From an uncultured Anaerobiospirillum sp. (GTDB lineage: Bacteria; Pseudomonadota; Gammaproteobacteria; Enterobacterales; Succinivibrionaceae): a DNA stretch of 37,081 nucleotides. Of this stretch, positions 13,474 through 37,081 are shown piece by piece. The DNA is taken from the NCBI GenBank assembly GCA_944390115.1, contig CALXOW010000029.1:1-37081 (forward strand). The letters are read 5' to 3'. Each line of letters begins with the position of its first letter. Position 1 is the stretch's first letter. The notes beneath the pieces are model-generated. The model made no database searches. It was not told the DNA's origin and saw nothing but the letters and a program-made list of their open reading frames with translations. The position numbers were made by a program, and so were the translations under genes.

Positions 13474-14529
13474 CTAATAAAGCGTGGCAAAGGGGAAATG
13501 TACCTGCACCTCATCCCAACTCAGCTGTAAGTGCGGCCCCAAGAACAAGATGACGTCCTTCACCCCACGCTGGCACAGGTAAGAAATCATACGCTCATCG
13601 ATGGCGTGTTGCAGTGCCTGGGGATAAAACTCCAAGCTCTCGCTCAAATGCAGGAAAAACTCGTAGCTCTGGGGCGGATACTGCGTGGCCAGCTCATCGT
13701 ACACCGCCCGCTCCTCAGGGCTTAACACCATCGCTCGCCCGGCAGTGTAAGGGCGATAGAGCTCGATGAGCTCACAGTCACCTGAAGCGGTAATGCCACA
13801 GGTCAAATAGAGCGCATTGGCCGTCAAGTACGCCTCACGCATGAAGGCTTGACGATAGGACAGCTCGTCTTTGTGCGCAGTGGTTAAGATATCACACGCC
13901 GGGCTTGAGGCTTGAAGCCACGGCGTAAGCTGGCCTGACTCCGGGCTAGGGTCAAAGCGCGCGCTGACTACCACCGGATAGCGCGGGGAGAGCGCACCCC
14001 AATGCTGCCAACACAGGGACCCGCCTACGGCCTGCATCAGATAATTTAAGTCGTCGCTTGTCAGGTCGGGATAGCGCGGGGCAAAGACAGACAAAAAGAG
14101 CTGCTGAAATTCGTACGGATCAGCCTGTAAGCCCTGCATGATGTCGTAGGAGCACAAATGCAGCACTTGCACCTCAAGCGACTTTGACCAATTAGCCTCA
14201 GCACTGGTAGCTTGAGGGCGCGCTGTAGTGCGGCGCTGATACTGAGGAAGCAGGCGCGACTCAAACTTGCCTGAGCGCAAGCGCGGGACTTTGATGGTGA
14301 TCGGCCCCAAGGAGCTAGCAATAGTCTTGCGGCTGTAGCCGTTACGCGCGCTCTTAGCGGTAGAGCTTGACTCGGCCTGATGGCACTGCAAGTCAAGTTC
14401 GCATTTGAGCAGCTCCTCATAGCAATGCGCCAGGGCCTGCCCCATCAGGCCCTGTAAATAGCCTGCGGGGTCTAGTTTGAACTGAGCTAATTGGTTTAGT
14501 GCGACCTCTTGCTCGTGCGGCGTGCGCAT
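13474..14529 (-). CDS. IS256-transposase-derived protein lacking the catalytic residues
   Basis: A 351-aa protein. Residues 60-100 (SARNGYSRKT, then IKVPRLRSGKFESRLLPQYQRR) match the conserved N-terminal block of IS256-family (Mutator-like) transposases. The preceding helix ELLKCELDLQ also fits. Further on, YPVVV at 184-188 aligns with the strand that carries the first catalytic Asp, and RGVKDVILF at 321-329 with the strand carrying the second. The Asp positions read Ala/Ser and Gly/Pro instead, and the protein stops there, so the Glu region is absent. The ORF is undisturbed, with codon use like its neighbours. It starts 2 nt after the stop of the formyltransferase gene, so it is probably translated from that operon. 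I read it as a domesticated, non-catalytic transposase; a decaying relic is the alternative. Confidence 0.7.
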   Translation of the reverse strand: MRTPHEQEVALNQLAQFKLDPAGYLQGLMGQALAHCYEELLKCELDLQCHQAESSSTAKSARNGYSRKTIASSLGPITIKVPRLRSGKFESRLLPQYQRRTTARPQATSAEANWSKSLEVQVLHLCSYDIMQGLQADPYEFQQLFLSVFAPRYPDLTSDDLNYLMQAVGGSLCWQHWGALSPRYPVVVSARFDPSPESGQLTPWLQASSPACDILTTAHKDELSYRQAFMREAYLTANALYLTCGITASGDCELIELYRPYTAGRAMVLSPEERAVYDELATQYPPQSYEFFLHLSESLEFYPQALQHAIDERMISYLCQRGVKDVILFLGPHLQLSWDEVQVHFPFATLY

Positions 14530-16384: not shown

Positions 16385-16600
16385 TAGCCCTAAGCGCCCC
16401 TTGTGCCCCTGATGGCAAAAGCTTGAACCAAAGCGTACCGCCCTAATGCTGCCCTCAGGGCTGATTTGCCCTTACAATAGGAAATGCTCGCTCCAGTGCC
16501 AGTTGCCTGAAAATTGGTAGCACGGGTAGTCCTGACTTGGTGCGCGCGTTACTTTGCCTTAGCTTATAAGAGCGCAGATGTCTTTGCGGGAGGAATGGTC

Positions 16601-17335
16601 TTGCACAAATTGATTAAAACGGCCCTGGCCGTCGGCTTAATGCTGAGTATTGGTTCCAGCGCTCAGGCGATGAGCTCATTTTCCGCCGCCAAGCGCGTCC
16701 TGCCCCAAATCTACTGGCAATTAGAAGAGGAGTTTGGTCAACAGAGCACCGTGTACTGCGGCTGCCCCATTGAGTTATCAGGCAGCGCCAAAAAGCCCAA
16801 GTGGACCGTGGACTTAAAGCCATGTGGCTATGAGGCCCGCAAAAATAAGAGTCGCGCGCGCCGCATTGAGGTCGAGCACATCATGCCCGCCTGGGAATTT
16901 GGCCACCAAATGAAGTGCTGGCGCGATGGTGGCCGCGAGCAATGCGGTAAGGATAAAAAGTTCAAAGAAATGGAAGGCGACCTCCATAACCTCTTCCCAA
17001 GCGTGGGCGAGGTCAATGGCGACCGGGGTAATTTCCAATTTACCGATATGGGTGCTAAGCCAACTAAATATGGCAAGTGCCAGATGGTAGTAGACTTCAA
17101 GTTAAAGCTTGCCCAACCACCTAAGGAGGCTCGTGGCCTCATCGCCCGCGCCTATCTCTATATGGCCCAAGAATACGGCATCCGCTTAGCTGCCCAGCAG
17201 CGTCGGCTCTATGAGGCTTGGGATCGCCAATATCCGGTTACCGCCTGGGAGTGCCGCCGTAACGAACTTATCAAGGCTGAGCAAGGCAACGATAACCCAT
17301 TTGTCACCAAGCACTGCCCACTCAAGTCTAAATAA
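16601..17335 (+). CDS. endA: Endonuclease I, periplasmic (catalytically intact copy)
   Basis: Secreted non-specific DNA endonuclease of the beta-beta-alpha-metal fold. Residues 1-23 form a signal peptide (KTALAVGLML, cut after SSAQA). In the mature part VEHIMPAWEFGHQ at 91-103 contains the Mg-ligand Glu92 and general-base His93, DLHNLFPSVGEVNGDRGN contains the metal-binding Asn, and WECRRNE is near the end. The Cys set (YCGC, KPC, KCW, QCGKD, TKHC) is that of EndA. I chose TTG 16601 because GGAGG is 7 nt upstream. ATG 16595 is in frame but only 1 nt from it. The gene is followed by a second endA copy and by rsmE, matching the endA-rsmE order of E. coli. Confidence 0.92.
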   Translation: MHKLIKTALAVGLMLSIGSSAQAMSSFSAAKRVLPQIYWQLEEEFGQQSTVYCGCPIELSGSAKKPKWTVDLKPCGYEARKNKSRARRIEVEHIMPAWEFGHQMKCWRDGGREQCGKDKKFKEMEGDLHNLFPSVGEVNGDRGNFQFTDMGAKPTKYGKCQMVVDFKLKLAQPPKEARGLIARAYLYMAQEYGIRLAAQQRRLYEAWDRQYPVTAWECRRNELIKAEQGNDNPFVTKHCPLKSK

Positions 17336-17365
17336 CCCTGCAATCACTTGGCTATAAATTGCGTT

Positions 17366-18097
17366 ATGAAAAAATTAATGCAAACGACCCTGGCTGTCAC
17401 ATTAATGTTAGGCCTTACTTCCAGCGCTCAGGCGATGAGCTCATTTTCCTCCGCCAAGCGCGTCCTGCCCCAAATCTACTGGCAATTAGAAGAGGAGTTC
17501 GGTCAACAAAGCACCGTGTACTGCGGCTGCCCCATTGAGTTATCAGGCAGCGCCAAAAAGCCTAAGTGGAGCGTGAACTTAGGTCCGTGCGGTTATCAAG
17601 TACGCGCCGATAAGCGTCGCGCTCAGCGCATTGAGACCGAGCTCATCATGCCCGCCTGGGAATTTGGTCATCAAATGAAGTGCTGGCGTGACGGTGGTCG
17701 CGAGCTCTGCGGTAAGGATAAGAATTTCAAAAAGATGGAAGGCGACCTCCATAACCTCTTCCCAAGTGTAGGTGAAATTAACAAAGACCGTCTTAACTAC
17801 CAATTCACTGATATGGGTGCTAAGCCAACTAAATATGGCAAGTGCCCGATGGTGGTCGATTTTGAGTTAAAGCTTGCCCAACCGCCTAAGGAAGCTCGTG
17901 GCCTCATCGCCCGCGCCTATCTCTATATGGCACAAGAATACGGCATCCGCTTAGCAATCCAGCAGCGTCGCCTCTATGAGGCTTGGGATCGCCAATATCC
18001 GGTTACCGCCTGGGAGTGCCGCCGTAACGAACTTATTGCAGCGGCGCAAGGCAACGATAACCCATTTGTCACCAAGCACTGTCCGCTATCGCGCTAA
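17366..18097 (+). CDS. Second endonuclease I copy with the catalytic His replaced by Leu
   Basis: A tandem paralogue of the preceding endA, same length and alignable without gaps from the signal peptide (MKKLMQTTLAV, cut after SSAQA) to TKHCPL. The general-base position 93 is Leu: ETELIMPAW instead of VEHIMPAW, codon CTC at 17642-17644 against CAC. The metal loop reads EINKDRLN instead of EVNGDRGN. All the structural Cys and most surface regions are kept, and the ORF is intact. It is therefore predicted to be an inactive, still secreted DNA-binding pseudoenzyme. No Shine-Dalgarno is visible before ATG 17366, only 30 nt after the first copy's stop, so coupling to the upstream gene is likely. 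A newly arisen loss-of-function duplicate is the alternative. Confidence 0.88.
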   Translation: MKKLMQTTLAVTLMLGLTSSAQAMSSFSSAKRVLPQIYWQLEEEFGQQSTVYCGCPIELSGSAKKPKWSVNLGPCGYQVRADKRRAQRIETELIMPAWEFGHQMKCWRDGGRELCGKDKNFKKMEGDLHNLFPSVGEINKDRLNYQFTDMGAKPTKYGKCPMVVDFELKLAQPPKEARGLIARAYLYMAQEYGIRLAIQQRRLYEAWDRQYPVTAWECRRNELIAAAQGNDNPFVTKHCPLSR

Positions 18098-24483: not shown

Positions 24484-27400
24484 CTAAAAGTCGCCCCAAG
24501 AATCATCCCCGAGGCCTGAGAGGATGTCACTGAGATCATCGTAGTCATCATCAAAGCCCTCGTCGAAGTCAGCCATAAACTCATCGGGGTCGACCTCCTC
24601 ATCCCACTCATCGTCTGGTGGTTCCACGCGCCGCTGATCTTTTTTCTGGAGCTTTTCCTGCGGGGCCTGAGCAGCTGACGCCGGGCGCTCAGCGCTCTGA
24701 GGCAGCTCGTCTGGAAGCGGCTCATCTGAGGTTGCTTGCTCAGCCTCATCATTGGTAGAACTCTCAGGTGGTACGGGCAGGTCTTGAGGCGCCAGGTCCG
24801 CTGGTGCTGGGTTTTGAGACGGCGTGGTTTGAGACGGCGTGGCTTGTGGTGCTGGGTCTTGCTTAGGTTTGCCCTTAAACTCGTTGAACTTGTGCACCGT
24901 AAAGTAATCAGGGCGCTCCTTGGGGTCAATCAGGCCCAAGAGCACCAAAATGCGGGTGCGCGCTTCAGCAATGGAGATGACCTTCTGCTCGGTGGGGACC
25001 TTGCGCCGAAATGGGTCTGCCATCAGCGCCAGGAGATCAAAGGTCTCGCCCCAATATGAAGAAAGCCCGACTTGATCGCGCACGTATTGGTCTGTGCGCG
25101 CCTTTGCTTGGCGCTGTTGGAGCGCGTCAATGAGCTGCGCGATAAGCTCGGTTAACAGCTCCTCTCCCTCCTCAGTGACATCTTGGCTTAAGGCCAGCCT
25201 TTGCGCGAGCAGCTGGGCCTGACTTAGGGTGCGGCCCTGGCGATAGCAGGCGATGAGCTCGGCGCTACTTAAATTAAGCTGATTGGTCACCACCACTGCA
25301 CAGGCGTGGCGATAGGCCTGTAGTAACAAGTTGGCGCGGTCAAGATAGTAGTTGGGCTTACGCTCGCGTTGATCGGTAAAGACAATGTGGGCCCGCTCTA
25401 GGGCCTGACGCAGCGCGGCGGGTACCAGCTTGCCCTCCTTTCTAGTAACGCGCTCACGGCGTAAGCGCCGGTAGAGCAGGAGATACCATAACACCAAGGT
25501 GTGCTTGAGCTTAAAGTCACAGAGCACATAGACTCCCAGCTTACGCTTGGGGCGGCTGGGGGTAGTGATTTGATAGCAGTAATAGCCCTGAATGGCATCA
25601 GGTCCCAGCACTGAGCCTAAGGCGGTCGTGCGCCCAGTGGTGACGCTGATGTGCTGGTTTTGCCAGAGATCCAAGGACCGCGCGTCATATGGGGTTCTGA
25701 TACGAGGAGACTTTTTGCTTCGTGAGTTCTTTTTGCCCAACCGGGACTTGTTGCGCGGCCTGGACTTGCGGTTCATGAGCTCTGGGTCTAACAGCACCAT
25801 GCCGTTTTTGAGCGCGTTTTTTACTGCTTTTAAGTGCAAGCTGCACTCTGGGGGTAGTTGCACTGCTAAATGGGTATCAGCGGCTAGGCTGTGATAGAGC
25901 CAGCTTGAATAGTGCTGCTGTGCAAAGCGCGCTTCACTATCCACTGAGGCGGCGCTTCCGATAGGGCAAGGCAGATACCACAGGCACTTAAGCTTTTGCT
26001 TCAGCTTGTCTTGTACTTTTTTTGCCAATTGCCGCCGTTTAAGCAGATTCGGGCCATCGGGTAAGGATAATGATGCGGTGATCTGCTCTTGGTGGCTCAG
26101 CACAATCTTAACGCGCTGGGGCTTTGGGCCCAGCGCGCGGCCGGTGGTCGGCAGCACCAAGGCCCAAGTGGGCAAGGTGATTTCGTTGCTGCGGCGCACT
26201 GTGTGGAGGGCCTGCGCCCAGGGACGACGTAACAAGGCACTGAGCTCAGGTAAACCATATTGGTGATGGGTTAGGCGCGCAAAAAAGGGATGGGCGCGGC
26301 CCTCTTGCTCAAACCAGCGTGCTTTGGCGGCAAAGGGGCTAATCATCGCCTCTAAGACTAGCTCGAGCCAGCTCAGAGTGTCCTGACGCGAGGTGGCAGC
26401 CTCCAGGCGCGGCCAAATGCCCTCTTGCTTACCTAGATAGGTCAGCAGCGCGACCGCGTCATCGTGTTTAATTTCGATCGTGTCTTCATAGCTGGGCTCT
26501 TTAGGGGGCGGGGCGATCACCACGGTCGCCGCTGTAAAAAGACCCTGGTCATCGCGCCCCGGCAACCAGGTGTAAACCTGGGGCCTGCCATCAGGTTCCA
26601 GATAGACCTCGTGTTGGTATTTGGGATCGAAATAGTCCTCATGCAGCCAAGGTGGAACCTGATTCCTTATATCGTCAAGCTCGTGCTGGCGACAGGCCAT
26701 GTTGATAAAACGCCACATCGGGACGACCAATAGCTTCTTAAACAGCCAGGCATCGTAGCGAATTTGCCCCTCTTCAATGTCTAAGTTGGAGTAGAGCAGA
26801 TTGCCCAGCTCCATCTCAGGCGTGCTGCCCTGCATCGTGTAATGGATGGCATAGGCAAGACCCCAGGATTTAGGGTAGTAAGTAAAGTGCGGCTTAGGCC
26901 ACGGCGTCCGCTCTGCTTTACTGAGCGCGCGCTCCTCTTCATAGGAGTTGCCCTTAAGGGGCAAATGGGCATAGAGATACCCCTGGTGCAGATGCACGAC
27001 CGTGAGCTCTTTGAGCTGCGGATAGAGCGCTAAAAACTGCTCGGAAAACAAGATACGTCCGGTGGCTTGCCCACCCTCGACTAGGCCGATGGTGCGGGGC
27101 ATCTGCGGCAGAACGTGCGCTGCTTTATCTTTAAGGCGCAGTGCCTGTTTACGCCAGCGCTCAGACTGCACCATCTGCTGAACCACTTCCTCTTCTAATT
27201 TGTACGCAAAGCTGAGGAGATATTGTTCCTGCTCGACAAAGCGCGACACCCAGGCATTGAAGCGATATTTAAAGGCTAAATCACGGTTGGGCATCGTCGC
27301 AATCAAGAGCTCTTGCGAGCGCGTTTTTGCTTGCCGTGCTTGCGCGTTAATGCTTTTTACTTGCTGCTCAGCTTCTTGTTTCTTACTCTGCTCAAGGGCC

Positions 27401-27876
27401 GCCCGCATTTGGGCGGTGGCTTCCTTAGCCGCCGCTGCACTAATGGTAATGGCGTAATAATCGGACCCACCCTGATGACAGCGGTGCTCACAGGTAAGCT
27501 GGGGCAAATGCAGGCTGTGGTAATCGTACCAATAGGCTTGTTGCAGCTGAGCCTTAAGCTCACTAAACGGGAGCTTGAAATGGCAGGTAACAGGCAAGCG
27601 CTGGCGATAAGGTCTTTGGGGGCGTTGCTCGCGCCAGTGATAGTCGTACTGACCGTCCTGAGTATGGACGATCTCAACCTCAGTTAAGATTGGGTATTGC
27701 TGAACAAAGCTCGGCTTAAACTCAATCGGCCCGTACTTAGCGGCGGCGATCTTGCCCACTACCGGGCCACCACGCTGACGCACCAAGTAATAAGGCTGAC
27801 CATACCTATCAACCATGCGCTGTAAGCTCAAACGGGGCAAGCCTAGCTCCTCGAGCTTGGAATTAGCTACTCTCAT
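24484..27876 (-). CDS. Large transposase-derived protein with duplicated N-terminal module and acidic tail
   Basis: A 1130-aa protein. Residues 10-80 (LEELGLPRL, VGKI, IEFKPSFVQQYPILTEVEIV) and again 265-318 (GRILFSEQFLALYPQLKELTV, then NSYEEERA) resemble the N-terminal module of IS1634-like transposases and of the 221-aa protein upstream. Residues 150-260 are Lys/Glu/Gln-rich helix, probably coiled coil. VVVTNQLNLSSAELIACYRQ near 860-880 fits the strand-helix before the catalytic Glu of DDE enzymes, but GRTLSQ replaces the usual WxIE. From about 1007 the chain is Pro/Gln-rich, then strongly acidic (DDEWDEEVDPDEF, and more Asp to the end). I chose ATG 27876, with GGGAG 6 nt upstream. I know no described protein with this architecture. 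Host use as a DNA- or protein-binding factor is inference. Confidence 0.6.
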   Translation of the reverse strand: MRVANSKLEELGLPRLSLQRMVDRYGQPYYLVRQRGGPVVGKIAAAKYGPIEFKPSFVQQYPILTEVEIVHTQDGQYDYHWREQRPQRPYRQRLPVTCHFKLPFSELKAQLQQAYWYDYHSLHLPQLTCEHRCHQGGSDYYAITISAAAAKEATAQMRAALEQSKKQEAEQQVKSINAQARQAKTRSQELLIATMPNRDLAFKYRFNAWVSRFVEQEQYLLSFAYKLEEEVVQQMVQSERWRKQALRLKDKAAHVLPQMPRTIGLVEGGQATGRILFSEQFLALYPQLKELTVVHLHQGYLYAHLPLKGNSYEEERALSKAERTPWPKPHFTYYPKSWGLAYAIHYTMQGSTPEMELGNLLYSNLDIEEGQIRYDAWLFKKLLVVPMWRFINMACRQHELDDIRNQVPPWLHEDYFDPKYQHEVYLEPDGRPQVYTWLPGRDDQGLFTAATVVIAPPPKEPSYEDTIEIKHDDAVALLTYLGKQEGIWPRLEAATSRQDTLSWLELVLEAMISPFAAKARWFEQEGRAHPFFARLTHHQYGLPELSALLRRPWAQALHTVRRSNEITLPTWALVLPTTGRALGPKPQRVKIVLSHQEQITASLSLPDGPNLLKRRQLAKKVQDKLKQKLKCLWYLPCPIGSAASVDSEARFAQQHYSSWLYHSLAADTHLAVQLPPECSLHLKAVKNALKNGMVLLDPELMNRKSRPRNKSRLGKKNSRSKKSPRIRTPYDARSLDLWQNQHISVTTGRTTALGSVLGPDAIQGYYCYQITTPSRPKRKLGVYVLCDFKLKHTLVLWYLLLYRRLRRERVTRKEGKLVPAALRQALERAHIVFTDQRERKPNYYLDRANLLLQAYRHACAVVVTNQLNLSSAELIACYRQGRTLSQAQLLAQRLALSQDVTEEGEELLTELIAQLIDALQQRQAKARTDQYVRDQVGLSSYWGETFDLLALMADPFRRKVPTEQKVISIAEARTRILVLLGLIDPKERPDYFTVHKFNEFKGKPKQDPAPQATPSQTTPSQNPAPADLAPQDLPVPPESSTNDEAEQATSDEPLPDELPQSAERPASAAQAPQEKLQKKDQRRVEPPDDEWDEEVDPDEFMADFDEGFDDDYDDLSDILSGLGDDSWGDF

Positions 27877-27895
27877 GCTTGCTCCCTGAGACTGA

Positions 27896-27968
27896 GCCCA
27901 CGTAAGTGGAGCTAAGCCCACTTCAAGGCTCAACCCATCTTCTGGGCTGGGCCCACGTAAGTGGAGCT
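27896..27968. repeat. 18-bp direct repeats between two transposase-derived genes
   Basis: GCCCACGTAAGTGGAGCT occurs at 27896-27913 and 27951-27968. Each contains a CCAC-GTAA-GTGG mini-hairpin. They fill the gap between the 614-aa and 1130-aa ORFs. Confidence 0.8.
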
Positions 27969-27977
27969 GAGTCCTCC

Positions 27978-29822
27978 TTAGTCTGGTTTGAGCTGCTGCC
28001 AAGCGCTCACGCCGAGCAGTTGATACAGCCGTCGCTGCTGCGCATTAAGGCGCGCCTGTTCCCGGCGCAGCTGTCCTTTACTAATGCTCTCATTATGCGC
28101 TTGGGCCAAGAACTTGAGCATGCGTGGCACATCTTGCAGATAAGCCTTAAGTGCGGCGCTCTCCTTATCAGCGGTCCCCTGCTTTAAGTCAGCATTCAGC
28201 TTAATATAGGCTTCCTCACAACGATACTGGAGTGTTTGGTGTAAAGCCGTGACCACAGTCGCAATAAAGACGAAAGGTGCTAGGGCACTGAGCTCAAGTG
28301 CCGTAAGTTGGGAGCGCGGCGCTCCGGCCTCAAGACAGATACGCGCTAAGTTCTGGACCTGCAAGCTATGCTGATAAGTGCGATAGACCGCATCGGCATC
28401 GAGGTCTAGGCAGCTACTTAACAGGAGGAGCTGGGACTTGCTGCGGGCTAATTGGGTGAGGCGTAATTTACTGATGCCATAGGAGCTATTGGGATCAGGA
28501 GTGAGTAAGGAAGTCTTAGGGTTCCACTCGATGCGGCGCGTCAGATGCGCACCGTAATGTAAGCGTCGCTCTAACGCCGTCAGATTAGCTTTCGCTTGGC
28601 TTAGCTTGGTAACCAGCTTAGCCCCGCGCTCTTGGTAATAGCGCGTCCAGTAACGCTCAAGCTGGTCATTATGAAAGGAATGAAGCAGCACCGTGCTGAC
28701 GGGATGGTGCAGCCATAACTCGAGTGACCAACTTACGGCCTTGATCTGATTTGTGGTAATGAGGTTACTGAGCTTTAAGCCACGCTCTAGACGTACTTTC
28801 TCCGAGGCTGCAATCTTGTGGCTCAAACGCATCCCCCAAGGTACGCCCAAGATGAAGAAGGGGGGCCTCTGCAGCCTGTTTTGCGCTGTGCGTAAGGCTT
28901 GCGGCTGGTTTTGCACTTTGAGCGCTGCCACCACCTGCTCTCTACTGACCTCGGTGCGCTCTAAGACTTCACAGACTTGCTTAAGCTCAGGCCAGTCAGA
29001 ATCAATAACTTGATCCTGTTTTAAGGCTGCGTTCAAATTGCGCTGGCGCTGCGCGGCTAAAGTTAGGCTGAGAGGATAAGTGGCGGTGAGGTACTGATAG
29101 CACGGCGCGCCACCGGGGTCTAAGGCCAAGGACATCAGATACAGCGGCTTTAATCCGTCCTTGCCCTCAAGCTGCAGCGGCAGCTTAATCCCATAAAAGC
29201 ACGGCACCGGTATGCCGGTAGCGATGGCAGGTGAGATTAAGCGCGCCGCCTTCTCATAATCAGGCTGCATTGGATCGGAGCCGGAGGCAAACACCTTGCC
29301 TGGAGGAAAGCGGTGCTGCCTCTTCATGCGCTGCAGCACGCTGCGCCCATGCTTAGTGAGCACGCGATAGACCGCATGCTGACTTGCTGGGCTAATTGCC
29401 TCCAACAAGGCCTTAAGCTCAGCTAAATCATAGCGTTGGCCGGTCAAATACGAGCAAAAGTCACCTGAAAACTCCGTCCCCTGCCCCAGCGCTCGCAACA
29501 GTGCCGCAAAGCGCTCTGGGTCAAGCAGGCACAGGCACGCAAGATCAAAGAGCGCCCGCGCCGTCGCACTGCCGCAATGCTCCTTAAGGCTAGGATAGAG
29601 CTTACTTTGCGTGACCAGTTGCCACAGCATCCCGACGACGCGGATACGCGCCCGCGCCGCGCCATCAAGCGGCGCGTGGCCTGTTTTAGGGGCCGGAACC
29701 TGCTCTTTAGGATCGGGGACGAGCGACCGTCTCAGCTGCGCCCTCGGCCGCTGCCGCCTTTTTGGCCGCGCGCGTTGCGGCAGCCTTGGCTTTTTGTGCC
29801 GCCTTGCGGATCGCTTCTTCAC
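27978..29822 (-). CDS. IS1634-like transposase-derived ORF, +1 frame to the upstream gene, catalytic residues not intact
   Basis: Open for 614 codons. The part from about residue 65 looks like the DDE region of IS1634/IS4-like transposases. LKPLYLMSLALDPGGAPCYQ near 225-245 and PFFILGVPWG near 325 match conserved strands. Residues from AVYRTYQHSLQVQNLAR near 470-485 match the YR-W-IE-F helix, but with Gln where the catalytic Glu belongs. No clear DDE set remains. The first 64 residues are Arg/Lys-rich and read the 221-aa gene's 3' end in the +1 frame over 116 nt, so they are probably not coding. The GTG at 29822 has no ribosome site and the first ATG is at 29630. Either a frameshift, programmed or mutational, joins it to the upstream gene, or it starts internally. 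Confidence 0.5.
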   Translation of the reverse strand: MKKRSARRHKKPRLPQRARPKRRQRPRAQLRRSLVPDPKEQVPAPKTGHAPLDGAARARIRVVGMLWQLVTQSKLYPSLKEHCGSATARALFDLACLCLLDPERFAALLRALGQGTEFSGDFCSYLTGQRYDLAELKALLEAISPASQHAVYRVLTKHGRSVLQRMKRQHRFPPGKVFASGSDPMQPDYEKAARLISPAIATGIPVPCFYGIKLPLQLEGKDGLKPLYLMSLALDPGGAPCYQYLTATYPLSLTLAAQRQRNLNAALKQDQVIDSDWPELKQVCEVLERTEVSREQVVAALKVQNQPQALRTAQNRLQRPPFFILGVPWGMRLSHKIAASEKVRLERGLKLSNLITTNQIKAVSWSLELWLHHPVSTVLLHSFHNDQLERYWTRYYQERGAKLVTKLSQAKANLTALERRLHYGAHLTRRIEWNPKTSLLTPDPNSSYGISKLRLTQLARSKSQLLLLSSCLDLDADAVYRTYQHSLQVQNLARICLEAGAPRSQLTALELSALAPFVFIATVVTALHQTLQYRCEEAYIKLNADLKQGTADKESAALKAYLQDVPRMLKFLAQAHNESISKGQLRREQARLNAQQRRLYQLLGVSAWQQLKPD

Positions 29823-30372
29823 GCTCGTAACAATTGTTGGTGAGCGGCGCCTCGACGTAGCGGATAAACTGCGGGGCTAAACGATAGACTGTAACCTTTT
29901 TGAGCTGCGGATACTCCTCGATGAACTCCTGCTTAAACAAGATGCGCCCGACCGGATCATCGTTTTCGATTTTACCGACCGCCCGGACATTGCTCACGGG
30001 AGCGGCGCCCGTGCTGAAATTGTCGTAGGTGTTAACGGAGTAATGACCGGTGCCATCCGAGCGATAGCGCGTGCGAATGAGCAAGGAAGGAATCCCCAGC
30101 TGCTCTAAGGTATTGTCTCTAATGTCTTGGTCAAACTCCCAGCCATCACCATGCTCGTCCTTGACGCGATATGGGTCAATGGGGCGCCCGTCAGCATCCA
30201 ATTGCTCAGGCGGTATCGGATAGAGCTCGTCAATCGATAAAGCAGGTTTCTTAGCCGCTGCCTTCTTGGTCGCAGTTGCCTTAGCTTTTTTAGCCGGGGC
30301 TTTCTGAGGTGCTGCTGCCTCAGCACGTTTTGACACCGACACCTGAGCTTTTTTGATAATAACTGGGGCCAT
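29707..30372 (-). CDS. N-terminal transposase-like module protein with Lys/Ala-rich arm
   Basis: A 221-aa protein. Residues 1-45 are Lys/Ala/Pro-rich like histone H1 tails (AKKAKATATKKAAAKK). Residues 88-185 carry the module shared with the 1130-aa protein: LEQLGIPSLLIRTRYRSDG, VGKIENDDPVGRILF, FIEEYPQLKKVTVYRL and NNCYEREEAIRKA. The end is again an Ala/Lys helix (AATRAAKKAAAAEG). In intact IS1634-like transposases such a module continues into the DDE domain. Here the frame stops at 29707 while the 614-aa ORF carries the continuation in +1. ATG 30372 starts 2 nt after the Nudix stop and has GAGGA upstream, so it is coupled to the Nudix gene. Confidence 0.6.
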   Translation of the reverse strand: MAPVIIKKAQVSVSKRAEAAAPQKAPAKKAKATATKKAAAKKPALSIDELYPIPPEQLDADGRPIDPYRVKDEHGDGWEFDQDIRDNTLEQLGIPSLLIRTRYRSDGTGHYSVNTYDNFSTGAAPVSNVRAVGKIENDDPVGRILFKQEFIEEYPQLKKVTVYRLAPQFIRYVEAPLTNNCYEREEAIRKAAQKAKAAATRAAKKAAAAEGAAETVARPRS

Positions 30373-31027: not shown

Positions 31028-31240
31028 ATGGCCCCGAATGATTTGGACTCTACCCTGATCAAGATGCAAGAGCGCATTGCTTGGCTGGAGGGCGCCCTGC
31101 AAGAAAATAATCACCTGCTTGAAGATATGGCGCAGCGTTTAGATAAGGCTGAGCGCCAAATCAAGGTCTTAGCCCAGCTGATGGACACCCAAGAGCATGT
31201 ACGCCCGCTCTCTGAGGACACGCTGCCCCCACATTACTAA
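31028..31240 (+). CDS. slyX: SlyX family protein
   Basis: A 70-aa coiled-coil protein of unknown function, common in gammaproteobacteria. It shows the heptad pattern (ERIAWLEGALQENN, then LDKAERQIKVLAQL) and the diagnostic C-terminal PPHY. Usual length is about 72. The ATG is preceded by AAGGA. The GNAT-like gene starts 15 nt after its stop with its own AAGGAG, so the two are likely co-transcribed. Confidence 0.9.
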   Translation: MAPNDLDSTLIKMQERIAWLEGALQENNHLLEDMAQRLDKAERQIKVLAQLMDTQEHVRPLSEDTLPPHY

Positions 31241-31255
31241 AAAAGGAGCCGCACC

Positions 31256-32062
31256 ATGCAGTCACTGAGCAACAGCCCGCTCTTTCTTAAGCCAGAACGC
31301 TGCTCGACCATATACCAAGACCGCGCTCATCACTTATTTCTGCTCACTGCTCCTGAACTTGCCACCCCTTTAGCGCGGCTGATGTTCACGATCAAAGCAT
31401 TGCCTCAAGACGCAGCCGCCCCCGCCTGGCTTAAGCCTGGGAGCGACCACTATCAGCGCTTAGCGCAGCTCTTAGCTTATTGCGCTGAGCATGAGCTGTG
31501 GCAGCCTGAGCACTCCTATTGCGTCTTACTCAATCGGCCTCATTATGACTACGCGCGCCTCCATGACATCTTCAGCCGCTTCTATCCTGAGCAAGAGGCG
31601 TTCACCTACCGCAGCATCTTGCCGACCACGCTCGGCTCCGAGTTGGACTACGTACGCCCCGAGGAACTGGATCTAGTCGAGGCTGCTTTGCATCAGCAAT
31701 TGCCTGACGTGACGCGCCATCAATTGCCGACGCGCGAGGCTTTGCGGGCGCACATCAATGCAGGTCAGCTCTTAGCGCTGCGAGCCAGCGATGGTAGCTT
31801 AGCGGGGGTGGTGCACTTTGAGCTCAATGGTCTTGATCTCTATGTGGCCCATCTGTTCAAGATTCCGGGCACCACCGTGCGTTCAGTACTCCCGCAATTG
31901 ATCGCCTTAACCCAACGTGAATGCGCTCAAAGAAAGCTCAAAAAAGTCTATCTCTACCACCTAAAGCACAATGCCAAGCTAGCCGCGCTCTATGAAGCCG
32001 CAGGCCTGACCCCGAACCCACAGTTTGACCTAACCTATTACCTGCCTCAGGCTCAATCGTAA
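31256..32062 (+). CDS. GNAT-like acetyltransferase-fold protein
   Basis: A 268-aa protein I do not recognise by name. The C-terminal half has the shape of a GNAT domain: LLALRASDGSLAGVVHFELNG (beta strands 3-4 with the turn), PGTTVRSVLPQLI (acetyl-CoA helix position), KKVYLYHLKHNAKLAALYEAAG (the strand plus NxxAxxLYexxGF-like helix), then PNPQFDLTYYL. The usual Q/RxxGxG/A loop is not obvious, so activity is uncertain. The N-terminal 130 residues are unassigned. Its last 10 nt overlap the convergent CbrC-like gene. Confidence 0.6.
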   Translation: MQSLSNSPLFLKPERCSTIYQDRAHHLFLLTAPELATPLARLMFTIKALPQDAAAPAWLKPGSDHYQRLAQLLAYCAEHELWQPEHSYCVLLNRPHYDYARLHDIFSRFYPEQEAFTYRSILPTTLGSELDYVRPEELDLVEAALHQQLPDVTRHQLPTREALRAHINAGQLLALRASDGSLAGVVHFELNGLDLYVAHLFKIPGTTVRSVLPQLIALTQRECAQRKLKKVYLYHLKHNAKLAALYEAAGLTPNPQFDLTYYLPQAQS

Positions 32063-32580
32063 TCAAACCAGACCAAGTGCTTGCCGCAATGCAGGCAGCG
32101 AAATAAGTAGCACTGGGCGCTGCCGCCGTTGACGCAGGTGGCGATCACCTCTTTTTCGTAATCATCCCACCGAGGATCGTCCAGTACCTCGTCCAAAATA
32201 CCGCGTTCCTTAAGTTCATCGGCGCCGACATAACCTAAGAAGGCGCAAAAGTCGTGGCAGTGGCTGCGCCAGAACTCCTGTTGCCAGCCACTATAGCCAG
32301 GGGTACGGTGAATGAGCTCATCGAGCTTATCAAGGTCCTCGACCCCAGCCTCAACATTGGTCTCATCCTGAAAGCAGCCATCGAACTTCTGAGCCGCCGC
32401 GCCACTGGCAATGCAATTAGGACACAGCACGGGTTGTGACCCTACGCAGTAAAAGGGGCCGCGATAAATCACCGAGGTTGGCTGACCGCAACAGGCACAG
32501 AGCACTGGCTTCTTGAGCTTGACCATGCTCTCGGTCGCCACGGGATCAGGATGGTAACGAAAGGTCGGCAGCTTACTCAT
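32053..32580 (-). CDS. CbrC family protein (UPF0167)
   Basis: A 175-aa protein with the family start LPTFRYHPDPVATES. It has two Cys pairs around CACCGQ at 28-33 and VLCPNCIA at 50-57, then GSAAQKFDG-type and FCAFLGYVG segments, and a second Cys pair at the end (FRCLHCGKHLVWFD). These suggest two zinc ribbons. E. coli CbrC is linked to colicin E2 tolerance under CreBC control. ATG 32580 has AAGGAG 5 nt upstream and begins 9 nt after the stop of the third SUFU gene. It is therefore the last gene of that operon, which supports a shared toxin-tolerance role. Confidence 0.88.
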   Translation of the reverse strand: MSKLPTFRYHPDPVATESMVKLKKPVLCACCGQPTSVIYRGPFYCVGSQPVLCPNCIASGAAAQKFDGCFQDETNVEAGVEDLDKLDELIHRTPGYSGWQQEFWRSHCHDFCAFLGYVGADELKERGILDEVLDDPRWDDYEKEVIATCVNGGSAQCYLFRCLHCGKHLVWFDYD

Positions 32581-32589
32581 CACAACTCC

Positions 32590-34284
32590 TTATTGGTTCC
32601 GCTGCTTGCGCGTAAAGGTCGGTTTGGCCCCAGCTTTACGCTGTGGCCCATCACTCTTACGTGATGTGTTCCCACTCTTATGCGCAGCGTTCCCACTCTT
32701 ACGTGGTGTACCTTCACCCTTACGCGGTGCGTTCCCACTCTTACGTGGTGTACCTTCACTCTTACGCGGTGCGCCCTTCTTATGCCGTGCGCCGCCATGC
32801 TTGCGCTGGGCACCATCGCACATACGTTGCATTAAGTGCTTGGGGTTAAAGAACAAGTCTGATTGCATTCTCTGATCGTAGTAAGCAGCAGGACTCATTT
32901 CTGAAGCACATTGCAGCTCGCGCTTGCTCAGTGGAACCACCGCAAGGAAGTTAACTCGCTCGGCATTAGCAAAGAAGCAAGAATCAGCTCCTGCCTCAAT
33001 GTAATTAGGCTCAGAATCGGCCGAAAAAAGCATAACCGTGCTGTAATCAGGAACATCGAGCAACTCAGATGTGTCAACTAATGCTCCAATCATAAATGGA
33101 AAGGCAGCATCTTGCGCTCCAGATACCAACGCAAAGAGCAAACGCACCGGCCACCCCCAATACTGATCGTTAAGGTGCTCGTAATCCAGCTTCCAATCAG
33201 GGGGTAGGAATAACACCAGCTCAATACGCTCTAGGTCTAACTGTTCAAAGCGGGTAGGAACATATTGGCGTCGTACCCCCAACCCAATTGTGACCAAGGT
33301 ATAGAAAGGACGCTGCGTAGTTGGCGCAATTAGGTCGATAGAGACCGGAGACACATCAAGCGCCTTGTGCACATCAAGGGTATTAAAAGCACTACCAAAA
33401 TAATGCTTAATGTGCCCTTTAACTGCTAAGTACTGGTCCAAGGTGTAGCAATTAGCGAACTTAGCATGAAGCGCACCAAAGTCAACGTAAGACGTATTGA
33501 CTAAGATCTTAATATCAGCAGGTTTTTGATTAAGAGCATTTAGCTCTTCCAAAGTTAAGAGCCAAGGTCGGTGAATTTTCGTCTTAAAGCTAAACTTGAG
33601 TTTGCTCCGCCACAGCTCAATAAGCTTAAGCCAGCCAAACAGCAGACCATAAGTCAGTTCCACGCCATACAGCGGTAGCAGGCGGTAAAAGTTCACCTGT
33701 TCACCCCCAGACAACGCGCACACATGTGATTCCAGTACCGTAGCATCAGGAGGTAAGGCCACCACACTTTTAAGTTCGGTGTTCCGCGCAAGCGGATGAT
33801 TGTAGTCAATATAAGGCGTCGGACCCCACCAGCGTTTCTCAAGAGTAGGCCTAAAGGCAAAATCAATCAAAACCTTGATCGGCCAATACCAATCAGGATT
33901 GGCCTCCCAATCCTTGTTGGCTATCTTCCAATTAGAAGGCAGGTACAACACCAACTCCGCTCGTTCATATTGCTTGGCCGCATACCTAGCAGGCACTTGC
34001 ATGCGACAAGCACCCAGTCCAAGGGTCACCAGAGTAAGATAAGGGCGCTTTTTGCTCGGAGCAATAAAAAGCACCTCTATCTGCCCCAATACCGCAGGGT
34101 GGCAGATGCCCTCTTGCTTTATGGCCTTACCAAAATAGCGCTTGATATGCTCACGCACGAGCACATCATCGTCCTGTGAGTAGAAGGCAAGCGCTGTCCT
34201 CATACCCTCAGGATAAGGATCTTCGGTGCGCTTGGTCATAATGTCGAGCAAACTACGTGGCTTAGCACTATAGCTCTCACTCAT
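32590..34284 (-). CDS. Two SUFU-domain protein with basic heptapeptide-repeat tail
   Basis: A 564-aa protein. Two suppressor-of-fused domains can be followed. The first has RPYLTLVTLGLGACRMQVP near 80, ERAELVLYLPSNWKI near 105 and VNFYRLLPLY near 195. The second has RPFYTLVTIGLG near 325, RIELVLFLPPDWKL near 350 and VNFLAVVPL near 460. The last 60 residues are tandem 7-residue repeats of the PRKSGNA/PRKSEGT type, very basic. Bacterial SUFU proteins are known as immunity proteins against polymorphic toxins. ATG 34284 has AAGGGGG upstream. The gene lies 90 nt after the second SUFU gene and 9 nt before the CbrC-like gene. Confidence 0.85.
   Translation of the reverse strand: MSESYSAKPRSLLDIMTKRTEDPYPEGMRTALAFYSQDDDVLVREHIKRYFGKAIKQEGICHPAVLGQIEVLFIAPSKKRPYLTLVTLGLGACRMQVPARYAAKQYERAELVLYLPSNWKIANKDWEANPDWYWPIKVLIDFAFRPTLEKRWWGPTPYIDYNHPLARNTELKSVVALPPDATVLESHVCALSGGEQVNFYRLLPLYGVELTYGLLFGWLKLIELWRSKLKFSFKTKIHRPWLLTLEELNALNQKPADIKILVNTSYVDFGALHAKFANCYTLDQYLAVKGHIKHYFGSAFNTLDVHKALDVSPVSIDLIAPTTQRPFYTLVTIGLGVRRQYVPTRFEQLDLERIELVLFLPPDWKLDYEHLNDQYWGWPVRLLFALVSGAQDAAFPFMIGALVDTSELLDVPDYSTVMLFSADSEPNYIEAGADSCFFANAERVNFLAVVPLSKRELQCASEMSPAAYYDQRMQSDLFFNPKHLMQRMCDGAQRKHGGARHKKGAPRKSEGTPRKSGNAPRKGEGTPRKSGNAAHKSGNTSRKSDGPQRKAGAKPTFTRKQRNQ
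32623..32769 (-). repeat. 21-bp coding tandem repeat, seven units
   Basis: Encodes PRKSEGT, PRKSGNA, PRKGEGT, PRKSGNA, AHKSGNT, SRKSDGP and QRKAGAK in order. The central units are almost identical at DNA level (CACGTAAGAGTGG), so slippage can change the tail length. Confidence 0.85.
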
Positions 34285-34374
34285 AGGACCCCCTTAAAAA
34301 ACGAAACGGGCAAAGTCAGAAATGAATTAGGGCGGTAGCAGCGCCAAGCCTTGAGAGACGCCACCACCAAGCTC

Positions 34375-35991
34375 TTAATAACGCTTAGGGCGGGCATGAC
34401 CTTTGTGCCCGCCTTGCTTCTTACCGCGCTTAGAAGGATGGCGCTTGATCTTATTGGTGTTTGGATGATGCGAGATTGGATGATGCGAGACTTGATGCAA
34501 CAAATGCGGACGGTGCAAATCAACCACCAAACCGTGCTCGACGACCTCCCTTAGCAGTTGAGCCGGACCATACTTCTTCACAAAATCGATTTCATCGCGA
34601 TAGAGCGGAGCCAAGAAGTAGAAATTGACCTTCTTACCCTGAGGCAGCTGACACACCCCAGCATCCAACGTGGCAATTACCGGGTCACAATCGGCCGGAA
34701 CGAGCATACAGCCACAAAACTGGGTGTTATCCGCCAAGTTGTGACCAAGCGATACCACCTTTCCCATCATCATGAACTCATGCTGTTCCAGCGTGATTGC
34801 GACCAACGCATGCATTAAGAAAAAAGGCCAAGACCAACGCTCATCTGCGCGGTACTCGTCGCTCACCATCCAATCAGGTGGTAAGACCATCACGAACTCA
34901 GTGCGCTCCCACTCCAGATCTGCTAAGACCTCGGGCAGATCCATACAATAAGCGCCAAAACCTGATGACACTAAAAGGTAATAAGGATTGAACTCGGTCG
35001 GTTCAATTACATGGATTTTGAGCTCGATCTCACTGACCAAACTACATTCGTCCACAAAGGAGGTCACACCAAAGTTACGCCTGATGTGCTGCTCAATCGC
35101 GGCCTGCTCACGTGGCGCGTATGAAAGAAGCTTGTGCTCTAATGCGGGCTCAATTTCCCCTGGCTCATTGCGGTGCTGGGCACGCATCTTTTGCTGAGCA
35201 AGCGCGAGCAGCTCAACTTGACTCAACTCAGGTTCATCAAAGTCGGCAGCGCTGAGCTCAGGCTCAGCTAACGCGCCTTCATCTGCGCTTAAGTCGGGAT
35301 AAATGCAGCGCCGGTGCGGATCGATCTCTAACGACAGCGCGGCCTCACTCATCAAGTCGGCCAGATTATCGATCCCGCAGTCCTGCGCATAATCGTACTC
35401 TGTTTGGTACAGCGGGACGACCTGGTAAAAATGGACGATTTTACCCCCAGGCAAAGGGCAAGATTTCAGCCTGTAATCGATATCTTCGGCCGCATACAGT
35501 AAGAGAGCACACTGCTCGGTATCAGGTGCAAAGCGCTGTGGCCAGGCGCGGAGATGAGCCGTGTCTTGAGCTAGACTATTGACATCAGGAGTGGAAGAAA
35601 GGAAGTTCAACACCGTAAACGGCCAAGCCCAACGCTCTTCCAGCAAAGCCTGAGGGCTAAGCTGCCATTCCTCTGGCAGCATCAACATGAACTCAACACG
35701 CTCCGACTCAGGACTATCACCTGCGCCTACACCAACCGTCAGCACAGTGTAATAAGGCCGCTCTGCGGTTGGCTCGAGCACCCAAAACTCCCATGCGCGG
35801 TCGGGACAGTTATCAGAAGTACCAATAGGCATGCCGCTAGGATAGACCTGAGGTGAGACATGGTACGTGTGCTTGATATGGTGCTTTAGAGCCTTATACT
35901 CAACGCGCGCATAGAGTGCTGTTACCTTAGCCCCCTCGTGCAAGGCGCGCTCTTCAGGCGCAGTATCCTGACCATATTGCAAAGCAGCCAT
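34375..35991 (-). CDS. Two SUFU-domain protein with His/Lys-rich tail
   Basis: A 538-aa protein with two SUFU domains. The first has RPYYTVLTVGVGAG near 80, RVEFMLMLPEEWQL near 100 and IVHFYQVVPLY near 190. The second has NPYYLLVSSGFGAY near 335, RTEFVMVLPPDWMV near 365 and VNFYFLAPLY near 455. An acidic linker (EPELSAADFDEPELSQ) near 245-265 separates them. The end is rich in His, Lys and Arg (HHPISHHP, RHPSKRGKK), resembling the basic tail of the next gene though different in sequence. ATG 35991 has AGGAGG upstream and starts 4 nt after the stop of the first SUFU gene. Confidence 0.85.
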   Translation of the reverse strand: MAALQYGQDTAPEERALHEGAKVTALYARVEYKALKHHIKHTYHVSPQVYPSGMPIGTSDNCPDRAWEFWVLEPTAERPYYTVLTVGVGAGDSPESERVEFMLMLPEEWQLSPQALLEERWAWPFTVLNFLSSTPDVNSLAQDTAHLRAWPQRFAPDTEQCALLLYAAEDIDYRLKSCPLPGGKIVHFYQVVPLYQTEYDYAQDCGIDNLADLMSEAALSLEIDPHRRCIYPDLSADEGALAEPELSAADFDEPELSQVELLALAQQKMRAQHRNEPGEIEPALEHKLLSYAPREQAAIEQHIRRNFGVTSFVDECSLVSEIELKIHVIEPTEFNPYYLLVSSGFGAYCMDLPEVLADLEWERTEFVMVLPPDWMVSDEYRADERWSWPFFLMHALVAITLEQHEFMMMGKVVSLGHNLADNTQFCGCMLVPADCDPVIATLDAGVCQLPQGKKVNFYFLAPLYRDEIDFVKKYGPAQLLREVVEHGLVVDLHRPHLLHQVSHHPISHHPNTNKIKRHPSKRGKKQGGHKGHARPKRY

Positions 35992-35995
35992 AGAC

Positions 35996-36829
35996 TTACT
36001 CCTCCTTAGGCTCAAGTGCATTAGGACGAGTAAGGTCCACTACCCGGCTAACCTCAGTCAGCTTGGCAATGAGCTCCTCGCCGGTGTGCTCGATGCCGTA
36101 CTCGACCTCATTTTGGTACAAAGGCAAGAGCTGGTAGAAGTTGACCTTATCACCATTAGGTAAAGAGCAGACCGGAGCAGCTATATTCATCGCATCAGGC
36201 CCCAGTACCACCCAGCCTGAGAGTCTGGTGTTATGGGCTAATGGTCCGTTGTAGTTGATGATAAAGCCCGGATCGACAATCCAATCGGAGCTCAAACCCA
36301 TGCGTGCGGTGACTTTGAGCACTAACAGCGGCCACGACCAGCGCTGAAACTGCTGAAACTTGGGGCTCAGCTTCCAGTCTGACGGCAGCGTGATAATGAG
36401 CTCGGCGCGCTGCAAATGCTGCGCGGCCTGCTCCTGATTCACCGCCATCTGATGCGCGCCCATACCGCAGGTAATCAAGGTATAGAAAGGATGCTCGGCA
36501 CTAGGCTCAATCACCCAGATATCAACCTTGATGTCTTGCGGCTTGTCATAGCTGATCACTGTAGCAATAGGGCCGTAATGCTGAGTGATGTGCTGCTCTA
36601 AGGCCGCACGCTCCTCAGCGCGGTACTCCTCAAGCGGCGGCTTAATAGCTTCCATCACCGCCGTCATTTGCTCGTACAAGGACGCTAGCACCCGCTTTTG
36701 GGATAGTTGCAGCAAATGCGTCAACGTCGCACTCTGCAATTCAAGGGGCAGTATCTCAACGGTATCGATTACGGCCTCATAATTACCGACTTGGTACCAG
36801 TCTTGGCATAACTGCTCAATTTCTTCCAT
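35996..36829 (-). CDS. Single SUFU-domain protein with helical N-terminal region
   Basis: A 277-aa protein, first gene of the SUFU operon. Residues 1-75 are helical (MEEIEQLCQDWYQ, then LLQLSQKRVLASLYEQM). The SUFU domain follows, with HPFYTLITCGMGAHQM near 112-127, RAELIITLPSDWKL near 140, RWSWPLLVLK near 162 and DKVNFYQLLPLYQNEVEYG near 230-248. The same set recurs in the four other SUFU domains downstream. ATG 36829 has AGGA 5 nt upstream; the 17-codon in-frame extension is Leu/Arg-rich and lacks a ribosome site. It lies about 214 nt from the end of 5S rRNA and just past the rRNA terminator. Confidence 0.85.
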   Translation of the reverse strand: MEEIEQLCQDWYQVGNYEAVIDTVEILPLELQSATLTHLLQLSQKRVLASLYEQMTAVMEAIKPPLEEYRAEERAALEQHITQHYGPIATVISYDKPQDIKVDIWVIEPSAEHPFYTLITCGMGAHQMAVNQEQAAQHLQRAELIITLPSDWKLSPKFQQFQRWSWPLLVLKVTARMGLSSDWIVDPGFIINYNGPLAHNTRLSGWVVLGPDAMNIAAPVCSLPNGDKVNFYQLLPLYQNEVEYGIEHTGEELIAKLTEVSRVVDLTRPNALEPKEE

Positions 36830-36985: not shown

Positions 36986-37033
36986 AAAAACGACCAAGGC
37001 CCGGAGCTTGAGCTCCGGGCCTTGGTCGTTTTT
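36986..37033. terminator. Terminator of the rRNA operon
   Basis: AAAAACGACCAAGGCCCGGAGCT and its complement form a perfect 23-bp stem around TG. T tracts on both strands make it bidirectional. It begins about 10 nt after the 5S rRNA end. The 36834-36985 interval beyond it holds the AT-rich presumed promoter region of the SUFU operon and no gene. Confidence 0.93.
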
Positions 37034-37042
37034 CTAAATTTA

Positions 37043-37081
37043 AGCTTGGCGATGACCTACTTTCGCACAATCGTACGTTGC
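37043..37081 (-). rRNA. rrf: 5S ribosomal RNA, 3' end (partial)
   Basis: Read on the minus strand, GTGCGAAAGTAGGTCATCGCC matches the conserved 3' arm of bacterial 5S rRNA (loop E and helix I return strand). A strong terminator follows directly. The rest of the rRNA operon lies beyond the window. The exact 3' nucleotide is uncertain by a few bases. Confidence 0.88.

Follow-up and report, generated by a model that had tools for sequence, protein, structure and literature searches.

The locus studied here raises the question of what three SUFU genes and one gene of the CbrC/UPF0167 family do together in an uncultured species of Anaerobiospirillum (family Succinivibrionaceae). The four genes were located in a stretch of 37,081 nt (contig CALXOW010000029.1 of assembly GCA_944390115.1), the whole of which is referred to as the window; the host genome that carries it is designated G000, and the other G and L numbers are labels of compared genomes and loci. 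In a run on the minus strand, from 36829 to 32053, the genes S1, S2 and S3, with one, two and two SUFU domains, are followed by the CbrC gene. On comparison of sequences, these four genes probably constitute a poly-immunity locus with no toxin gene of its own, with SUFU and CbrC as predicted immunity proteins, because SUFU is a listed immunity superfamily, CbrC is recurrently linked to immunity genes, pairs of LHH nuclease toxins and CbrC exist elsewhere, and the array turns over between relatives while S1, S3 and CbrC are under constraint.

S1 (35996-36829, minus strand; 277 aa) was composed of an N-terminal region of about 95 aa and one SUFU domain (PF05076, E = 7.7e-33), S2 (34375-35991, minus strand; 538 aa) of two SUFU domains and a basic C-terminal tail (E = 4.9e-53), and S3 (32590-34284, minus strand; 564 aa) of two SUFU domains and a repetitive, K/R-rich C-terminal tail (E = 2.9e-44). 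The CbrC protein (32053-32580, minus strand; 175 aa) matched PF03691 over profile positions 1-173 of 174 (E = 1e-56). The gene and domain counts of a first-pass annotation of this DNA were thus confirmed by the search with SUFU and CbrC profiles that it had proposed. A profile search of the genome placed the five SUFU domains on the minus strand at 36023-36535 (S1), 35308-35775 and 34507-35028 (S2a and S2b), and 33604-34080 and 32866-33345 (S3a and S3b), all above the PF05076 gathering cut-off. The other four domains were only 27-40% identical to that of S1, and are therefore old paralogues and not the result of a recent duplication. An LP-(S/P/E)-(D/E/N)-W motif was present in all five, as had been annotated, but the VNFY-LLPLY strand, also given as shared, was not kept in strict form, being diverged in S2a (VHFYQVVPLY) and S3b (VNFLAVVPLS).

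The gaps between S1 and S2, S2 and S3, and S3 and CbrC were 4, 90 and 9 nt, as annotated, when internal ATG starts were taken at 36829, 35991 and 32580; the longest open reading frames (ORFs) begin upstream of those ATGs, and the longest one of S2 would overlap S1. S1, S2 and CbrC were acidic, with isoelectric points (pI) from 4.8 to 5.2 (CbrC, 5.0), S3 was basic because of its K/R-rich tail, and no membrane-like segment was detected in any of the four proteins. The S3 tail (32590-32814, minus strand) showed a pI of 12 and a net charge of about +19, and that of S2 (34375-34506, minus strand) was short and basic, with a pI of 12.

SUFU poly-immunity is already known. Both the immunity superfamily and poly-immunity loci and proteins were described by Zhang et al. 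(2012; PMC3482391), in the part of that article covered here, and the tandem, diverged immunity genes and domains of those loci resemble those of the window, where, in a poly-immunity layout on one strand, three genes share five diverged SUFU domains and CbrC follows. The Firmicute proteins described in that part combine SUFU, SUKH, Imm33, Imm66-69 and TPR, with up to 10 immunity domains; in contrast, SUFU is split over three genes in the window, the host is gammaproteobacterial, and CbrC/UPF0167 is not mentioned in the part covered. The pairing of CbrC and SUFU, considered undescribed in the first-pass annotation, was not found in searches of the open-licence PMC literature, although subscription papers may differ; nor did those searches yield CbrC as a toxin-paired immunity family, its link to LHH or its place behind giant poly-immunity proteins. 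In the parts of the articles covered, the role given to CbrC is in colicin (E2) tolerance or in the envelope (PMC3599342, PMC7284689, PMC10327504, PMC10454217, PMC3224125).

Genomes were scanned with the six CbrC proteins of the family as queries, and the best 80 of 222 relatives were kept. Bacillota, mostly gut Clostridia, accounted for 77 of these 80 loci, and Anaerobiospirillum for three, one being the copy of the sister genome G006. Neighbouring domains were searched with profiles built in this analysis, some from a single sequence. Within two genes of CbrC, DUF4253 was present at 46 of the 80 loci, DUF7832 at 45, DUF4261 at 42, SUFU at 40, Imm68 at 34 and SUKH at 23; SUFU was found in 41 of 308 near genes, and any of these domains in 1 of 650 genes at least four away. 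SUFU was within 3 kb of 26 of 47 CbrC genes, whereas the 79 SUFU matches found in 159 Mb would lead one to expect 0.19 (47 genomes, from 48 loci, two in the same genome). The usual linked layout was one giant immunity protein with CbrC directly after it, and at most of the 40 SUFU-bearing loci the SUFU domain belonged to such a giant; the giant of locus L077 (2071 aa) had the Pfam order Imm68-Imm33-(weak TPR)-SUKH-DUF4261-SUFU-DUF7832-DUF4253. The gene directly before CbrC carried DUF4253 at 42 loci, with a gap of 9 nt in 23, 6 nt in 9, 15 nt in 5 and another length in 5, and the S3-CbrC gap of the window equals the commonest of them. Ten representatives of further frequent neighbours were also compared with Pfam: six were over the cut-off (SUKH, DUF4261, DUF4304, DUF3885, SF0329, WYL), two sub-threshold and two without match.

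Similar arrangements were observed outside the Clostridia. In G012, of the same family as the window, CbrC is flanked by a DUF7832-DUF4253 gene and by Imm68, and a TPR-SUKH-DUF4261 protein is encoded next to them; on a plasmid of Vibrio nigripulchritudo SUKH_5 is followed 30 nt on by CbrC. Beyond itself and the G006 orthologue, the N-terminal 95 aa of S1 had Clostridial giant immunity proteins as best phmmer matches (full-sequence E of 5e-4 to 1e-3; single domains not significant). In a CbrC tree of 51 selected rows, the window pair was placed in a 22-row clade with Clostridia (support 97/98), and the G012 CbrC inside the giant-linked group (99/92). The tree fits a transfer of CbrC between phyla, the direction of which we infer; transfer from Clostridiales was likewise inferred in a study of Lysinibacillus, in the part of it covered here (PMC7284689). 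CbrC was detected in 3 of 369 genomes of the class of the window, its own included, and in 12 of 391 genomes of a fairly even sample of one Clostridial class, in which none of the 20 CbrC-less genomes tested had SUFU. Adjacency of CbrC and SUFU was found in three separated CbrC lineages: giant-linked Clostridia, the window and G006, and G639. The pairing therefore recurs, is common in gut Clostridia and is not a local oddity, even if searches of the open-access literature did not find it.

CbrC was also found behind nuclease toxins. In G639 (locus L168) an LHH nuclease (PF14411, E = 8.6e-15) forms the end of a 278-aa protein, and CbrC comes 17 nt after it; farther along the same strand lie SUFU, at a distance of 600 nt, an RHS-repeat protein (E = 1.2e-49), an ORF of 140 aa and an EndoU nuclease, in that order. 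A plasmid search with the G639 CbrC gave one match, in Anoxybacillus amylolyticus, with the order SUKH, LHH nuclease (E = 2.1e-7) and CbrC 92 nt after. In a 225-genome sample of the order of G639, CbrC was present in 10 genomes, all of them opened, and LHH was directly upstream in three (G639, G883, G961), confirmed by Pfam; in G961 the LHH domain formed the C-terminal end of an RHS-repeat protein. All four loci came from searches with CbrC, none from a search with the toxin, and the LHH profile was built from two of them, so that only L209 (G883) and L210 (G961) are independent finds, although all four were confirmed by Pfam.

The LHH-paired CbrC proteins (four of the four members found) formed one deep clade (support 100/100). 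Pairwise identities among the four loci were 82/60/51/60/51/49% for LHH and 86/58/49/58/48/51% for CbrC; the remainder of the toxins was 26-33% identical, about the level of a forced alignment. As the identities of LHH and CbrC vary together and the rest of the toxin does not follow, these loci, four in number, carry the signature of a cassette of toxin tip and antidote. The same LHH tip is present in published Tox-LHH toxins such as YobL of B. subtilis and a type VI secretion system (T6SS) effector of Neisseria cinerea; in the part of PMC3482391 covered, Imm-SUKH is the only immunity listed for Tox-LHH in its table, whereas CbrC fills the slot right behind LHH at the four loci. According to the part covered of PMC9990079, LHH and the colicin-DNase family belong to the same His-Me finger clan. 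With this position and linked divergence, CbrC has the appearance of an immunity family not yet described; the tolerance of colicin E2 associated with E. coli CbrC might be explained in this way. Colicin E2 itself is an HNH DNase.

Comparison within the family showed how the locus of the window changes. SUFU was detected in 41 and CbrC in 6 of 57 Succinivibrionaceae genomes, the host included; a core single-SUFU protein, with a frame of about 340-410 aa, makes up much of that SUFU count. In G006, of the same genus, the site likewise holds S1, S3 and CbrC, but S2, between the first two, is reduced to its start and its final 66 codons, a pattern as after an internal deletion. The site is anchored by a GNAT-like gene (31256-32062, plus strand; named by eye, no Pfam match), which is convergent with CbrC, overlaps its end by 10 nt, and was matched in 6 of 11 genomes of the genus, its own included; in G005 a broken SUFU remnant lies beside it. 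G009 has a single reading frame of 903 aa, which contains three SUFU domains; CbrC was not found in its 86% complete genome. In a SUFU tree of 35 selected rows, domain 1 of G009 was grouped with S2a (99/98; long branch) and domain 2 with S3a (97/93); domain 3 had S2b as its nearest row (41% identity), in a weaker group (81/87). These groupings suggest that SUFU domains were reshuffled.

Between G000 and G006 the ratio of non-synonymous to synonymous substitution rates (dN/dS) was 0.18 for S1, 0.38 for S3 and 0.04 for CbrC, compared with 0.03 for lysC, 0.05 for ppnN, 0.07 for a Nudix gene, 0.16 for the GNAT-like gene and 0.22 for a 614-aa ORF (names given by eye except Nudix). By these ratios the three testable genes are under constraint, S3 being the fastest-changing. 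Gene content varies between these close relatives, as in a poly-immunity locus.

Several observations weigh against the proposed function and should be considered together. At the window CbrC is not directly behind a co-diverging toxin gene, an arrangement seen in the separate LHH clade (4/4), and the LHH-paired CbrC proteins are only 20-25% identical to that of the window. LHH was upstream of CbrC in just one of nine class-sample genomes opened (G646, G765 and G548 were left out) and in the 3 of 10 of the order sample. Pfam detected no toxin domain in nine ORFs between 24484 and 36829, the larger ones of that range, to which the 70-aa ORF at 31028 does not belong; on the other side of the locus the contig ends. 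This agrees with the first-pass inference of an island lacking its own toxin. The CbrC genes linked to SUFU, 40 in number, made up only 2 of 29 clusters at 80% identity, and, as the ranking of the best 80 by similarity favours one clade, the linkage counts come mostly from that clade. SUFU was present anywhere in 4 of the 12 CbrC-bearing genomes of the class sample, and adjacent in 3 (G432, which is the sample centre, G441 and G639).

Other settings of CbrC point in the same direction. Of the annotated plasmid records, 11 were inspected, and in two of these (Vibrio nigripulchritudo, Anoxybacillus) CbrC adjoins a toxin or immunity gene. In Deinococcus CbrC lies within an acyl-CoA dehydrogenase operon, and in an E. 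coli plasmid record the neighbours of cbrC are yieH and a small hypothetical gene; neither SUFU nor an adjacent toxin gene is present. No recognised immunity gene was found among the neighbours scanned of CbrC in G003, G004 and G010 (three of the six of the family), and custom profiles gave no immunity domain near CbrC at the class-sample loci L163-L167 and L169, nor at the seven order-sample loci without LHH, except a weak DUF7832 6.6 kb off in L208. Core SUFU loci were near ilvI/ilvH- or FAD-oxidase-like genes (named by eye) in 8 of 10 opened. Ties to an unrelated pathway, named in the first-pass annotation as what would contradict it, were thus found for Deinococcus CbrC and for core SUFU loci but not for the window operon, and its poly-immunity interpretation is otherwise supported by the listed superfamily, the immunity and toxin neighbours elsewhere and the turnover of the array.

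The main rival is an effect of CbrC on the envelope. CbrC would then be an envelope or stress protein that lowers toxin uptake without binding the toxin, and its SUFU company would reflect a shared stress or competition regulon. According to the parts of the articles covered, over-expression of CreBC modifies the envelope and thereby induces colicin E2 tolerance (PMC3224125), an envelope effect is also suggested in PMC3599342, and the cited E. coli record has no toxin gene beside cbrC. The window CbrC, on the other hand, is acidic and has no hydrophobic segment. Bacillota largely lack an outer membrane, yet they hold 77 of the 80 loci, and Streptomyces plasmids also carry CbrC; moreover, CbrC stands directly behind nuclease toxins in one clade and behind immunity genes in others. 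As many CbrC genes are Gram-positive and some copies are toxin-adjacent, this explanation fits poorly, and we regard it as unlikely.

Lower still is the probability that the SUFU genes have a housekeeping or regulatory role comparable to that of the family's core single-SUFU gene, with CbrC as a chance neighbour. The core frame recurs in the SUFU-bearing genomes of the family, its neighbours are those listed above, and it is nearly frozen (dN/dS of 0.02 between G000 and G006). However, six core domains formed a clade of their own apart from S1-S3 (support 97/99), the window genes differ in number and order between species, and the adjacency of CbrC and SUFU extends over three separated CbrC lineages, which makes this explanation improbable. 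A cassette for defence against phages or other mobile elements is the least probable of all, and very much so. CbrC was found on nine viral contigs, in five of them (L185-L189) right after a tail-fibre-like gene, identified by eye; but S1, S2, S3 and CbrC matched neither PADLOC families nor PHROG, and the nameable neighbours in linked loci were often immunity or toxin genes. On another viral contig (L190) CbrC lies among phage structural genes, and in all of L185-L190 it reads as a cargo gene carried by phages; on a plasmid of Pseudomonas sp. Leaf58 (L172) it is followed by an annotated elongation factor Tu gene.

The CbrC protein of the window showed the Cys motifs CxCC, CPxC and CLHC. Its AlphaFold2 model, predicted from an alignment of 57 rows including the window, had a mean predicted local distance difference test score of 93.4, and comparison of the fold with the PDB gave no match. 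It belongs to the same Pfam family as E. coli CbrC (YieJ), with 53% identity over 172 aligned positions (47% by tblastn); it differs in scoring 178.5 bits against NF040891, under the equivalog cut-off of 300, and is thus a family member and not the E. coli equivalog, and the yieH neighbourhood of the latter is without SUFU. The E. coli CbrC in the plasmid table bears the Gene Ontology term bacteriocin immunity, by electronic annotation.

The region upstream of S1 ends in 38 nt (37044-37081, minus strand) read by eye as the 3' end of a probable 5S rRNA gene, separated from S1 by a strong intrinsic terminator with a 20-bp stem (36988-37031, minus strand), by far the longest of 13 terminator-like sites in the region (5.1 expected). 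The rRNA operon reported beside the SUFU genes is probable: Rfam made no 5S call at the window end at either threshold, but the G006 contig starts within the same 5S-like sequence, as expected for an rRNA repeat. On the other side, three ORFs (24484-30372, minus strand; 1172, 614 and 221 aa), none over a Pfam cut-off, kept their positions in G006, and relatives of the 1172- and 221-aa ORFs are at the same site in G005. Tandem Endonuclease I genes (16514-17335 and 17348-18097, plus strand; PF04231, E = 2.4e-39 and 3e-34) possibly encode secreted DNases. A 351-aa protein (13474-14529, minus strand) begins like a Mutator-family transposase (PF00872), of which just the N-terminal portion is present, and continues in an unmatched C-terminal part; a formyltransferase-like gene and DUF5718 belong to the same run of genes. 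One SUFU protein of G010 (L051, 9332-10558) is separated by a single short ORF from a type ISP restriction-modification enzyme.

Contact weapons are present in the genus: a T6SS sheath gene was found in 6 of 11 genomes, the host's included, and Hcp was also found; a two-partner-secretion domain was over the cut-off in 9 of 11, and in the host sub-threshold only. These searches linked no toxin cargo to the window locus. The core SUFU gene and the T6SS genes of G000 (contig C94) were considered as one system and rejected, since T6SS genes adjoin core SUFU only in G000 and G006 among 10 loci. The tssC genes of G000 (C94, L042) and G006 (C7, L067) were 99.7% identical in DNA, with a synonymous rate (dS) of 0.009 versus 0.21-0.73 for nine other gene pairs, so that recent exchange of a T6SS piece is likely.

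As immunity proteins, each SUFU domain and CbrC would act in the cytosol by binding and blocking the tip of a toxin; the targets would most likely be HNH/EndoVII-type and other nucleases delivered by competing bacteria. The SUFU domains would act as several versatile, diverged binders, and CbrC as a further immunity family, a distant branch of which partners LHH-nuclease polymorphic toxins; the array may have been retained because the gut exposes its host to a mixture of toxins. The four genes appear to represent the Clostridial module of giant immunity protein and CbrC in a gammaproteobacterial form, divided into separate genes and presumably derived from that module by transfer.

A broader proposal, for and against which we find the balance about equal, is that CbrC/UPF0167 would be a widespread, unrecognised immunity family neutralising nucleases of the HNH/EndoVII superfamily, that E. 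coli CbrC would bind the DNase domain of colicin E2 in the cytosol, and that the window operon would be what is left, in split form, of a Clostridial giant module that passed between phyla and had its domains reshuffled one by one. If CbrC is an immunity family, the CreBC/CbrC-dependent tolerance of colicin E2 becomes a question of direct binding and neutralisation. A UPF family that occurs in several phyla, on chromosomes as well as on plasmids and viral contigs, would then gain a function, and the Clostridial giants and their split relatives in Succinivibrionaceae would show the spread and recombination of antidote stockpiles among gut bacteria.

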